Positions 4,900 through 64,000 of a stretch of 64,000 nt of DNA are shown here, piece by piece. How positions within the stretch are numbered: the stretch's first letter is position 1; the number at the start of each line of letters is the position of its first letter. Under the pieces are notes generated by a model. It was given only the letters and a program-made list of their open reading frames with translations. It was not told the DNA's origin and did not search any database. The stretch lies in contig NZ_JAGGKE010000004.1 in assembly GCF_017873555.1 (NCBI RefSeq), positions 124,001 through 188,000 of the forward strand, in the 5' to 3' direction. Position numbers and translations under genes: made by a program. The stretch is from Halorubrum trapanicum. GTDB taxonomy: Archaea > Halobacteriota > Halobacteria > Halobacteriales > Haloferacaceae.

Positions 4900-5280
4900 A
4901 CTGCCGCTGCGGTCGGCGCGCGCCTGCGAGCGGTCGCCCCCGGCGACCGCGAGCCAGCATGCGCGAGGGAGTCGCGAACGCCCGCAGGGCGTGAGCGACG
5001 AGGCTGGGGAGGCGTGAGGCTGCGGTCCCGCGAGCGACCGCAGGGAGCGAGCGGGAGCACGGAAGTCGCAGCCCGCGCAGCGAAGCGAGCAGGAACGTCT
5101 TCCGGCGGTGCTGTGCGGGGCGGGACTCAAAGGGGCAGTCGCGAGGACAGCGCACGCTCGCTGCGCGCTTCAGTCGCTCACTTCGTTCGCTCCTTCCAGT
5201 GCTTGCGTCGCCTGCGCTGTCCTCGCGACTGGGGCTTTGGAAGCGTTCTCCGCCGATCAGTGGTTGAGTATTTATAAATA
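4900..5280 (+). repeat. Structured repeat element, copy A (full length)
   Basis: Non-coding stretch between ribB and ilvE. In order it has a hairpin GCGGTCGCC-CCC-GGCGACCGC, the block GCGCGAGGGAGTCGC closed by GCGACGAGGCTGGGGAGGCG, an extra G/C-rich insertion (about 5015-5100), GGGACTCAAAGGGGCAG, and a long hairpin ending CTGGGGCTTTGG. In the last hairpin 5139-5154 pairs perfectly with 5213-5228. It is extended by CAG/CTG (5136-5138 with 5229-5231), a GGG/GGG internal loop and CAAAG/CTTTG (5128-5132 with 5235-5239). TTTATAAA lies 30 nt after the end (5271-5278). The six-frame ORFs across it look random. Same family as the copies at 13.9, 50.7, 56.7 and 63.7 kb. Confidence 0.8.
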
Positions 5281-5340
5281 GGCAGCTGGGGCTTTGGCGG
5301 TGTTCGCTGTCGATCCCTCAGTGGACTCGGATCTTGTTTC
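5281..5340 (+). repeat. Solo 3' tail of the structured repeat family
   Basis: Directly after copy A, a second CAGCTGGGGCTTTGG (to 5297) is followed by CGGTGTTCGCTGTCGATCC. This matches the 3' tail of the family (compare CTGGGGCGTTGGAGGTGTCC in copy D) but lacks all upstream blocks. The CAG and CTG arms abut, as if the intervening hairpin had been deleted. It ends upstream of the ilvE promoter. Confidence 0.55.
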
Positions 5341-13888: not shown

Positions 13889-14250
13889 GGGATAGAGCGG
13901 CTCAACGGAGAACATCCCCAAAGCCCCAGCCGCGAGAACTCGCGCGGCTTGCTGTCGCCCGAAAATCTTCGATTTTCGGGATGACGAGAGAGCTTCGCTC
14001 TCTCGAACCACGCGCCTTGCTCAGTCGCTCGCGCTGCTCGCTCCTTCGCTGCGGTGCTTACTGCGCCGTGCTTCGTCCTCGCGACTGCCCCTTTGAGTCC
14101 CGCCCCGAAACGCACAGCACCTCACGCCTCCCCAGCCTCGTCGGGCGCACCTTCGGGCTCCCTTCGGTCGCCCTCGTTGCGCCCGACTCCCTCGCGCGTG
14201 CTCCTCGCGCCCGACGGGCGCTCGGAGGCACGCGCCAACCGCATCACCGA
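13881..14250 (-). repeat. Structured repeat element, copy B (minus strand, full length)
   Basis: Read on the minus strand it starts with GGCGCGTGCC (near 14236). A hairpin GCGCCC-GTC-GGGCGC follows, then AGCACGCGCGAGGGAGTCGGGCGCA closed by TGCGCCCGACGAGGCTGGGGAGG (each block cited in part), GGGACTCAAAGGGGCAG (CAAAG at 14095-14091), a variable arm, and CTGGGGCTTTGG (13929-13918). The terminal stem TCGCGAGGAC pairs with GTTCTCGCGG through two G-U pairs. The variable arm contains two further perfect hairpins, CCCGAAAATC/GATTTTCGGG and GAGAGAGC/GCTCTCTC. TTTATAAA lies 29 nt beyond the end. Confidence 0.8.
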
Positions 14251-31205: not shown

Positions 31206-32620
31206 CACGGGTGATCCACACCGGCGACACCCACATCGGGTACTCGCAGTACCACTCGCCGGTCAGACGCCAGGACTTCCTCGACGCGTTCGAGACCGTG
31301 GTCGACGACGCGGTCGACGACGCGGTCGACGCCGTCGTCCACGCCGGCGACCTCTTCCACGACCGCCGCCCCGAACTCCGCGACCTGATGGGGACTATCT
31401 CCGTCCTCCGTCGGCTCGACGACGCCGGAATTCCCTTTCTCGCGGTCGTCGGCAACCACGAGTCGACGCGGGGCGGCCAGTGGCTGGACCTCTTCGAGCG
31501 GCTCGGACTCGCGACCCGGCTGGGCGACGAGCCGGTCGTGGTGGGCGACACCGCCTTCTACGGACTCGACCACGTCCCCGTCTCGCGACGCGACGACCTC
31601 GACTACGCGTTCGCCGACCACGACGCCGAGTACGCCGCCCTCGTCGCGCACGGTCTCTTCGAGCCGTTCGGCTACGCCGACTGGGACACCGAGACCGTGC
31701 TGACCGAGAGCGACGTCGCGTTCGACGCGATGCTGCTCGGCGACAACCACACCCCCGATACCGCGCAGGTCGCCGACACGTGGGTGACGTATCCGGGATC
31801 GACAGAGCGCGCGAGCGCGAGCGAACGCGAGGGGCGCGGCTACAACCTGGTCGTCTTCGACGCCGACGCGGCGGGCGGCGACGACCGCGTGGAGATCCGG
31901 CGCCGGGCGCTCGACACGCGCCCGTTCGTCTTCGTCACCGTCGAACTGCGCGAGGGGGAAGGCGAGTCCCGAGTTCGCGAGCGCGTGCGCGAGTACGACC
32001 TCACGGAGGCGGTCGTCCACGTCGAGATCACCGGCGAGGGGGATCCGGTGACGCCGGCCGCCGTCGAGGAGTTCGCGACCGACGAGGGCGCGCTCATCGC
32101 GCGCGTCACGGACCGGCGCGAGGTGGAGACCGACGGCGAGGTCGACGTGAGCTTCGCCGACCCGGAGGACGCCGTCCGCGACCGACTGGACGAGATGTCG
32201 CTCTCGACCGCCGCGCGCGACGTCGAGAGCGCGGTCCGCGCGGACACCGTCCCCGACGCCAACGTCCGCGAGACGGTGAAACGCAGAGTCGAGGAGCGGC
32301 TCGACGAGGAGGGAGATCTCGATGCGTTCGAGCCGGTCGATTCCGCCGACAGCGACTCCGACGACGACAGCGACTCCGACGACGACAGCGACTCCGACGA
32401 CGACAGCGACTCCGACGACGACAGCGACTCCGACGACGACAGCGACTCCGATGAGCAGCCGGACGGTGACGAATCGGATGCTGACGGAGCGGACGGTGAC
32501 GAATCGGACGCCGATAGAGCGGGACCCGGTGAAGTGGACGCCGAGTCCGATCCCGCGGAAACCGCGGACCCCGACCCGGCGGCGACCGACGGACAGGTCT
32601 CCATGGAGGACTACCTGTGA
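31202..32620 (+). CDS. mre11: DNA double-strand break repair nuclease Mre11
   Basis: Calcineurin-like phosphoesterase of the Mre11-Rad50 complex. All metal motifs are visible: HTGDTHIGY, VVHAGDLFHDRRP, VVGNHES, VAHGLF and LLGDNHTPD. The catalytic part occupies about residues 1-250, and a Rad50-binding helical region follows to about residue 380. The C-terminal 90 residues are a disordered acidic tail with a tandem DSDSDD repeat and a final QVSMEDYL. ATGA overlap with the upstream gene and GTGA overlap with rad50 show a tightly coupled operon. Confidence 0.95.
   Translation: MTRVIHTGDTHIGYSQYHSPVRRQDFLDAFETVVDDAVDDAVDAVVHAGDLFHDRRPELRDLMGTISVLRRLDDAGIPFLAVVGNHESTRGGQWLDLFERLGLATRLGDEPVVVGDTAFYGLDHVPVSRRDDLDYAFADHDAEYAALVAHGLFEPFGYADWDTETVLTESDVAFDAMLLGDNHTPDTAQVADTWVTYPGSTERASASEREGRGYNLVVFDADAAGGDDRVEIRRRALDTRPFVFVTVELREGEGESRVRERVREYDLTEAVVHVEITGEGDPVTPAAVEEFATDEGALIARVTDRREVETDGEVDVSFADPEDAVRDRLDEMSLSTAARDVESAVRADTVPDANVRETVKRRVEERLDEEGDLDAFEPVDSADSDSDDDSDSDDDSDSDDDSDSDDDSDSDDDSDSDEQPDGDESDADGADGDESDADRAGPGEVDAESDPAETADPDPAATDGQVSMEDYL
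32348..32451 (+). repeat. 18-bp tandem repeat inside mre11 encoding (DSDSDD)n
   Basis: The unit GACAGCGACTCCGACGAC is repeated almost six times with no base change until the end, giving a run of alternating Asp and Ser in the Mre11 tail. Perfect identity at DNA level indicates recent slippage expansion. Confidence 0.9.
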
Positions 32621-35310: not shown

Positions 35311-35374
35311 GCGGGCGCTCCCGTCGCCGGCACGGGCTGGAACGGAGACGAGGCCCGAACCTTCAACGTCGGCG

Positions 35375-35485
35375 CGCCCGCGAGCGCCCGGAGGGCGCGA
35401 GCGGACCGCGAGGGAGGCGGCGGGTCGGCGCGGCACCGCCCGCGCCGACCCGCCCGCCGAGGCTGGGGAGGCGCGAGGCACATGC
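35375..35485 (+). repeat. Half copy (F) of the structured repeat family
   Basis: Between rad50 and the next gene there is CGAG-hairpin(GCGCCC-GGA-GGGCGC)-CGAG, then CGCGAGGGAGG, a stem CGGGTCGGCGCGG pairing with CCGCGCCGACCCG, and GAGGCTGGGGAGGCGCGAGG. These are the 5' blocks of the family in the same order, but the CAAAGGGGCAG...CTGGGGCTTTGG hairpin and TTTATAAA are absent. The rest of the 35311-35561 gap holds nothing else I can name. Confidence 0.65.
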
Positions 35486-50654: not shown

Positions 50655-50938
50655 GGACTGCGGTGGCGCGTGCCTGCGAGGCCGCCGTGCGGCCGAGCCG
50701 CGAGGGACCGAAGGTCCCTCTGGAAGCCGGCGCGAAGCGCCGGCGACAGCACGCGCGAGGGAGTCGGGCGCTCCGAGGGCGACCGGAGGGAGCCCGAAGG
50801 ACGCGCCCGACGAGGCTGGGGAGGTGTGAGGCGCGGGGCTGTGCGGTGCGGGGTGGGACTCAAAGGGGCAGGCGCGAGTCCTCGCGCCTGGGGCTTTGGA
50901 GGTGCTCTCCGCTGCTCTCTGGTCAATCATTTATAAAT
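50655..50938 (+). repeat. Structured repeat element, copy C (full length, compact)
   Basis: Begins GCGGTGGCGCGTGCCTGCGAG (cited in two parts), hairpin GGCCGC/GCGGCC, then two extra hairpins GAGGGACC/GGTCCCTC and GCCGGCGC/GCGCCGGC with GAA loops. Next are AGCACGCGCGAGGGAGTCGG, a stem GTCGGGCG/CGCCCGAC, GAGGCTGGGGAGGTGTGAGG, and GGGACTCAAAGGGGCAG. The final stem is short: GCGCGA (50872) pairs with TCGCGC around a GTCC loop, inside CAG/CTG, GGG/GGG and CAAAG/CTTTG (50861-50865 with 50894-50898). TTTATAAA is at 50930-50937, 30 nt after the end. Confidence 0.8.
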
Positions 50939-56748: not shown

Positions 56749-57125
56749 CTTATAAAGAAACGAGGCGGTGGCGTCGCCGGCGGCCTGCCGCCGGCTGCAA
56801 GAGGCGCGTCGCGCCTCCCTGCGTGCCTGCGAGGCCGCTCCGCGGCCGAGCCGCGAGGGACCGAAGGTCCCTCTGGAAGCCGGCGCGAAGCGCCGGCGAC
56901 AGCACGCGCGAGGGAGTCGGTCGCCGAGCGAAGCGACGGCGACCGACGAGGCTGGGGAGGCGTGAGGTGCTGTGCTGTCGCGGTCGGGTGGGTCTCAAAG
57001 GGGCAGTCGCCGGCGACACCGCAGGAACGAGCGAAGCGAGTGACGAGGAGCGCAACGAGCGTCCGTCGTCCTCCCGGCTGGGGCGTTGGAGGTGTCCGTA
57101 GTCGATCCGCAGTCAACGATAGACA
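56749..57125 (+). repeat. Structured repeat element, copy D (partly degenerate)
   Basis: After CTTATAAA (56749) comes GCGGTGGCG, then the hairpins shared with copy C (GAGGGACC/GGTCCCTC and GCCGGCGC/GCGCCGGC) and AGCACGCGCGAGGGAGTCGG. The stem here is GTCGGTCGCC/GGCGACCGAC, followed by GAGGCTGGGGAGGCGTGAGG and CAAAGGGGCAG (56996-57006). The 3' side reads CTGGGGCGTTGG (57078), so the CAAAG/CTTTG helix has one mismatch and the terminal stem is weaker. At the place of the 3' TTTATAAA stands ATAGACAA. It looks like a decaying copy. Confidence 0.75.
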
Positions 57126-63715: not shown

Positions 63716-64000
63716 TTTATAAATAGACGCGGCGGTGGCGCGTGCCTGCGAGGCCGCTTCGCGGCCGAGCAGCACGCGCGAGGGAGTCGGGCGCGACGAG
63801 GGCGACCGAAGGGAGCCCGAAGGAGGCGCCCGACGAGGCTGGGGAGGCGTGAGGTGCTGTGCGGTGGCGGTTCGGGGCGGGACTCAAAGGGGCAGCCGTG
63901 AGGTGGGCGCAGGTGACGCAAGGACCACAAGGAGGGAGCGGTAGCGACCGACTGAGGACCGCAGCGAGCGTGCGCCCACCTCACGGCTGGGGCTTTGGCG
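63716..64000 (+). repeat. Structured repeat element, copy E (runs to the window edge)
   Basis: TTTATAAA (63716-63723), eight bases, GCGGTGGCG, then CGTGCCTGCGAG and a hairpin GGCCGC-TTC-GCGGCC. AGCACGCGCGAGGGAGTCGG follows with a stem GTCGGGCGC/GCGCCCGAC, then GAGGCTGGGGAGGCGTGAGG and GGGACTCAAAGGGGCAG. The terminal hairpin is perfect: 63896-63911 pairs with 63971-63986 (16 bp), plus CAG/CTG, GGG/GGG and CAAAG/CTTTG (63885-63889 with 63993-63997). The copy E stem differs from copy A at five positions, all compensated. Confidence 0.8.

Follow-up and report, generated by a model that had tools for sequence, protein, structure and literature searches.

A structured intergenic repeat with conserved G tracts in Halorubrum and other Halobacteriales

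A long hairpin lies close to the 3′ end of a 64,000-nucleotide stretch of the Halorubrum trapanicum genome (the window; contig NZ_JAGGKE010000004.1, positions 124,001 to 188,000), and three G residues face three others near its base. This raises two questions, namely whether the folded form is what has been selected and what kind of element the hairpin belongs to. The outermost pair, 63885 with 63997, closes a helix between CAAAG (63885-63889) and CTTTG (63993-63997). GGG at 63890-63892 then faces GGG at 63990-63992, and CAG (63893-63895) with CTG (63987-63989) opens a long stem carrying tandem G.A mismatches in its apical part (plus strand; arms CAGCCGTGAGGTGGGCGCA and TGCGCCCACCTCACGGCTG). 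We refer to this domain as P4 and to the element that contains it as copy A. Copy A matches R1, a covariance model of P4 built from 25 copies of its own genome, with 135 bits (E=9e-28), copy A being itself part of the training set; it scores 103 bits (E=9e-20) with R2, a model made from copies of nine other genera only. The match is thus far beyond chance.

Positions 63885-63997 form the 3′ domain of an intergenic element of about 270 nucleotides, which includes three further helices. Read from its 5′ end, copy A (plus strand throughout) has a TATA-like word, TTTATAAAT, at 63716-63724, followed by a segment (63734-63779) in which P1, with arms GCGCGTGC (63738-63745) and GCACGCGC (63772-63779), encloses the P2 hairpin (63752-63766). 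Next come the P3 hairpin, with GA/GA on its flanks (63786-63834), the conserved unpaired GAGGCTGGGGAGGCGTGAGG (63835-63854), a variable G-rich linker, the first two G tracts (GGG-C-GGG, 63875-63881), ACT and P4. The arms of P1 co-vary, GGCGCGTGC accompanying GCACGCGC in 47 of 64 own-genome copies and GGCGCGCGC accompanying GCGCGTGC in nine. P3 is represented by 52 distinct sequences among the same 64 copies, with 0.8% G-U in its outer stems. GAGGCTGGGGAGGCGTGAGG is near-constant across the own copies, and an equivalent is found in full copies of other genera. Beyond P4 there is a small hairpin-like segment, GGAGGTGTTCGCC, often followed by TTTATAA. The element shows no obvious terminal inverted repeat and no obvious coding gene, though its ends can be placed only approximately. 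Units of this 3′ type (CTGGGGCTTTGG...TTTATAA) also occur in tandem with a 57-nucleotide period (window 5285-5296; loci L020, L028, L161, L214 and L218), and similar units are seen in other genera (L170, L176).

The window contains several other copies. Copy E (4911-5296, plus strand) has its P4 at about 5124-5241, with arms CAGTCGCGAGGACAGCGCA and TGCGCTGTCCTCGCGACTG, and ends in a second 3′ unit at about 5285-5296. The apical part of its P4 runs the opposite way to that of the other copies: the P4 model gives it 113.6 bits on the minus strand and 68.4 bits on the plus strand. Such inversion of the apical part within its own arms, revealed by model matches on both strands, is seen at ten places of the genome, 5122-5245 of the window included. 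In a copy on the minus strand (13918-14240) the 3′ arm of P4 holds an insertion, and another (50662-50899, plus) combines a short P4 stem with a two-hairpin insertion. A degenerate copy with a broken P4 (56764-57091, plus) and a partial one limited to P1-P3 (35371-35479, plus) complete the set. The insertions represent a separate module, TCGCC-hairpin-CTGCCAGA-hairpin-TCGCTGG or its reverse complement, which has entered the element at differing points and in both orientations (window 50662-50899, 56764-57091 and 13918-14240; loci L013, L019, L032, L214 and L226). The window also has, at 32326-32469, an 18-base tandem repeat of the GACGACGACAGCGACTCC type, whose translation would be a stretch rich in Asp and Ser.

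Comparison of these copies bears on the sequence-only reading from which this work started. As it stated, the stems of copies A and E differ at five positions, the partner being altered in each case and pairing retained; the 13918-14240 copy keeps its pairing by means of two G.T pairs, and the stem of the copy ending at 50899 is short yet perfect. The further claim that all copies have the same base holds for the intact ones only, as the degenerate copy at about 56764-57091 has CGTTG in place of CTTTG and the one at about 35371-35479 has no P4.

Outside the window, R1 finds 129 matches in the H. trapanicum genome which, given ten places matched on both strands, correspond to about 119 loci. 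Three other Halorubrum genomes yield at least 114 matches each (from 114 to at least 150). Of 293 Halobacteriales genomes, 199 have R1 matches, and these represent 66 of 87 genera. With R2, 31 of the 247 genomes of a phylum-wide sample gave matches; all 31 belong to Halobacteriales and none of the matches in this sample falls outside the order. The repeat is therefore found across Halobacteriales and is strongly amplified in Halorubrum. Copies from other genera have CGGGTGGGACTGRAAGGGGC ... GGGGCTTYC as their core, and P1-P3 are often missing from them, leaving P4 by itself. In two genomes from another family of the order (G026 and G038), copies often form divergent inverted pairs about 300 bases apart. 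Beside one copy (L303, G000:C4:54200-57300) lies a long G-rich, low-complexity run that looks like an assembly or sequencing artefact.

Covariation in larger alignments, whose absence the sequence-only reading had named as refuting it, is present at all three levels considered. Among the 25 own copies, 98.9% of P4 pair cells hold standard pairs, and 121 cells are changed on both sides, against 31.9±4.2 in shuffled alignments. For 103 copies belonging to other Halorubrum species, two-sided changes number 575, compared with 161.5±16.4 after shuffling, and both sides have changed at 30 of 38 pairs; their alignment, being fitted to the model, leans towards it. When the structure was predicted afresh from 27 copies of nine other genera, two-sided changes were found at 25 of 34 pairs. 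Unpaired positions are conserved as well. The letters of the GGG/GGG loop, G34.G93 and the G.A columns are the same in 24-25 of the 25 own copies, and an A.A or A.C mismatch in P4 is also conserved. Given the covariation and the retained GGG/GGG and G.A mismatches, simple drift of the arms as an inverted repeat in DNA can be dismissed. Altogether, the structural claim is strong: the data support the folded single strand as what is conserved. The original proposal that the structure is selected, probably as RNA or single-stranded DNA, is upheld in part, by the covariation and by the mismatches, but some of the covariation may have arisen by exchange of whole hairpins between copies or by correction of one arm against the other.

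The facing G residues turned out to be part of a larger motif, GGG-Y-GGG-ACT-[helix]-GGG-[hairpin]-GGG-[helix], in which four tracts of exactly three unpaired G are found, other genera included. GGG-N1..3-GGG directly precedes the core in 39 of 44 own copies, 109 of 115 copies from other Halorubrum and 31 of 34 copies from other genera. Positions -8 to -6 and -4 to -2 are G in 93-100% of copies in every group, and position -5 varies, being mostly C or T; the -8 to -6 tract lies outside both the R1 model and the pattern used to select copies. Five of the 44 own copies have no perfect GGG-N-GGG. The G-G motif envisaged in the sequence-only reading is thus conserved and extended, the loop supplying two of the four tracts. 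Four tracts of at least three G around a duplex are the mark of a quadruplex-duplex hybrid, and the simplest reading of the motif would be a three-tetrad quadruplex set between two duplexes. We regard this as a good hypothesis. Such a quadruplex would be stabilised by potassium and would probably be a protein-binding site; alternatively, the tracts may serve simply as a sequence motif for recognition. Archaeal quadruplexes have been studied in Haloferax volcanii, and the intracellular potassium of halophiles is described as extremely high (PMC12873603, PMC12678505).

Copies are intergenic and flanked by genes in every orientation, divergent arrangements being the rarest (6/44). A cis-regulatory role tied to a single class of genes was rejected on this account. 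The RNase P RNA gene is followed immediately, at its 3′ side and on its own strand, by a copy in at least three Halorubrum genomes (G000:C3:220530-221151, G044:C9:319639-320252 and G004:C1:1408712-1409348). No copy was found on eight contigs of the H. trapanicum genome totalling about 383 kb, where some 15 were expected. The presence of TnpB genes on C12, C13 and C17 is part of the reason why these contigs (C12, C13, C15, C17, C18 and C21-C23) were taken as plasmid-like. In a plasmid collection, two records gave one partial match each, between ordinary metabolic and transport genes, and an exact match to the core was not found in viral contigs; a virus or plasmid element was rejected on these grounds. 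Even spacing along the chromosome is not claimed, since the best matches of one genome gave a CV of 0.73 against 0.98±0.11, unlike those of another.

Positions are partly shared between species. The site orthologous to copy A was judged by eye in the 22 species that allowed the gene end to be placed: the element is retained in 15, reduced to remnants in two and absent from five. The stems differ among the 15 species that keep it, and the orthologous site, compared between species, yielded no clean empty form. About 12-15 of 120 copies from other species have flanks in common with one of 46 own copies. Together with the depletion on plasmid-like contigs, these shared positions indicate that the repeat is old and mostly fixed, with real turnover.

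The explanation that we favour, tentatively and with a probability of roughly 0.4, is a chromosomal, intergenic, structured repeat with a quadruplex-duplex fold that a host protein recognises, in mostly fixed old copies. The two upstream tracts (GGG-Y-GGG) and the two facing tracts between the CAAAG/CTTTG helix and the long stem would make up its core. They would fold into a three-tetrad G-quadruplex held between two duplexes, a fold that the very high potassium of haloarchaea should favour. A host protein might recognise this fold in single-stranded or extruded DNA, or else in RNA transcribed from the repeat. The spread of copies would be ancient; most of those present today would stay where they are, while some are lost, some appear at new positions and stem sequences turn over rapidly. 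A more ambitious version, doubtful as it stands, would make these elements a chromosomal quadruplex-duplex family extending over the whole class, with a copy every 25 kb or so in Halorubrum. A haloarchaeal protein devoted to the family would bind them, their role would lie in organising or replicating the chromosome, and selection would act on the fold of the single-stranded DNA.

One alternative, possible if rather unlikely, is that the repeat is a non-autonomous transposon of the single-strand kind, related to IS200/IS605 elements and similar to PATEs. Here the hairpins would be the ends used by a Y1 transposase acting in trans, and the tandem 57-nucleotide 3′ units would be terminal-only remnants. 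High copy number, palindromes near the ends without apparent terminal inverted repeats, AT-rich flanks and the 57-nucleotide periodicity of the 3′ units all suit this idea, as does the similarity to Haloquadratum PATEs, which extends to their heterogeneity and 52-bp terminal-only forms (PMC3119063). The H. trapanicum genome also has four Y1 transposases and 13 TnpB genes. However, the element is missing from all 13 TnpB loci, where the best chance match to R1 scores 19.7 bits, and an origin as IS605/TnpB omega RNA was rejected for that reason. The four PF01797 (Y1) genes of this genome all adjoin TnpB genes; none stands alone, and a RAYT-like stand-alone transposase was rejected on that account. 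Furthermore, the repeat is missing from viral contigs and from plasmid-like contigs that carry several IS605 genes, and its positions are common to several species.

A trans-acting structured RNA family, with a promoter at the 5′ end and G-rich segments that bind an RNA-binding protein, is unlikely. Suggestive of such an RNA are the multi-domain fold, the conserved unpaired segments and the TATA-like words that precede GGCGCG by 17-27 nucleotides in 20 of 46 own copies, in a region enriched in AT; the spacing of the word varies, though, and Rfam offers no matching family. At gathering score, only a tRNA was matched in the window by Rfam covariance models, and one copy run against Rfam produced chance matches below threshold only. 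An apical part inverted in about ten own copies would also alter an RNA strongly. Finally, G-U pairs are few. 

Among the P4 pair cells of the H. trapanicum copies, G-U accounts for 1.2%; our own counts give about 1.6% for other genera (14 of ~890 cells) and, for the RNase P RNA of 18 Halobacteriales genomes, about 7% (102 of ~1,420 cells). The repeat thus has 3-6 times fewer than this RNA, a thin comparison with a single control RNA. The scarcity of G-U, the roughly ten inverted apical parts and the recurrence of hairpin types across loci suggest that the arms are kept alike as DNA no less than as RNA, the low G-U content pointing towards a single-stranded or cruciform form. If so, the covariation should not be read as independent compensatory mutations only.

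Maintenance of the arms as DNA does not make the elements plain DNA inverted repeats, with arms kept alike by template-switch correction or gene conversion and a fold that is not selected: the scarcity of G-U pairs, the large number of perfect palindromes, the reappearance of hairpin types from one locus to another and the inversions inside P4 would suit that account, yet arm correction would remove mismatches and GGG/GGG, G.G and tandem G.A are invariant or nearly so, while the unpaired GGG-Y-GGG is kept across genera, making it very improbable.

If the quadruplex-duplex reading is correct, haloarchaea possess a non-B DNA element, deeply conserved and in high copy number, with a G motif stabilised by potassium at its centre. 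It would provide a natural system for the roles of G-quadruplexes and extragenic palindromes at very high salt, with more than 100 natural variants per genome. That covariation in a repeat can partly reflect maintenance at the DNA level also matters for calling structured RNAs from covariation alone.

The repeat is real, widespread and apparently undescribed, no description having been found in Rfam or in the main text of the open-access papers searched. Known systems resemble it in part. Work on quadruplex-duplex hybrids and archaeal G-quadruplexes (PMC12873603, PMC7565180) deals, as here, with three-G tracts around a duplex hairpin and with a potassium-rich group of organisms; Halorubrum and a repeat of this kind are absent from the main text of these surveys, and the fold proposed here is a predicted one. 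Haloarchaeal omega RNAs of IS200/IS605 (sotRNA, RF02656/RF02657; PMC12558985) are likewise multi-hairpin and of similar size but, unlike them, the repeat has no Rfam match at gathering score and is not found at TnpB loci. REP/BIME sequences with their RAYT (PMC2817692, PMC8266576, PMC3733652) are also intergenic, chromosomal hairpins in about a hundred or more copies; REPs, however, are bacterial, 20-40 nucleotides long and in many cases tagged by GTAG or CGTC, whereas this repeat is archaeal, about 270 nucleotides long and has four helices. The PATEs of Haloquadratum (PMC3119063) share the most: they are haloarchaeal and non-coding, with many divergent copies, palindromes near an end, short terminal-only forms and small hairpin elements inside the palindromes, and they lack terminal inverted repeats, of which none is apparent here either. 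PATEs are targeted by SMR elements, which the two-hairpin module inside this repeat resembles. What sets the repeat apart from PATEs is its four-helix architecture, its conserved junction motifs and four G tracts, its near-confinement to the chromosome and its positions shared between species. While the link to IS605 that defines PATEs is absent at the resident genes, they are, compared by description, the nearest kind of element so far described.
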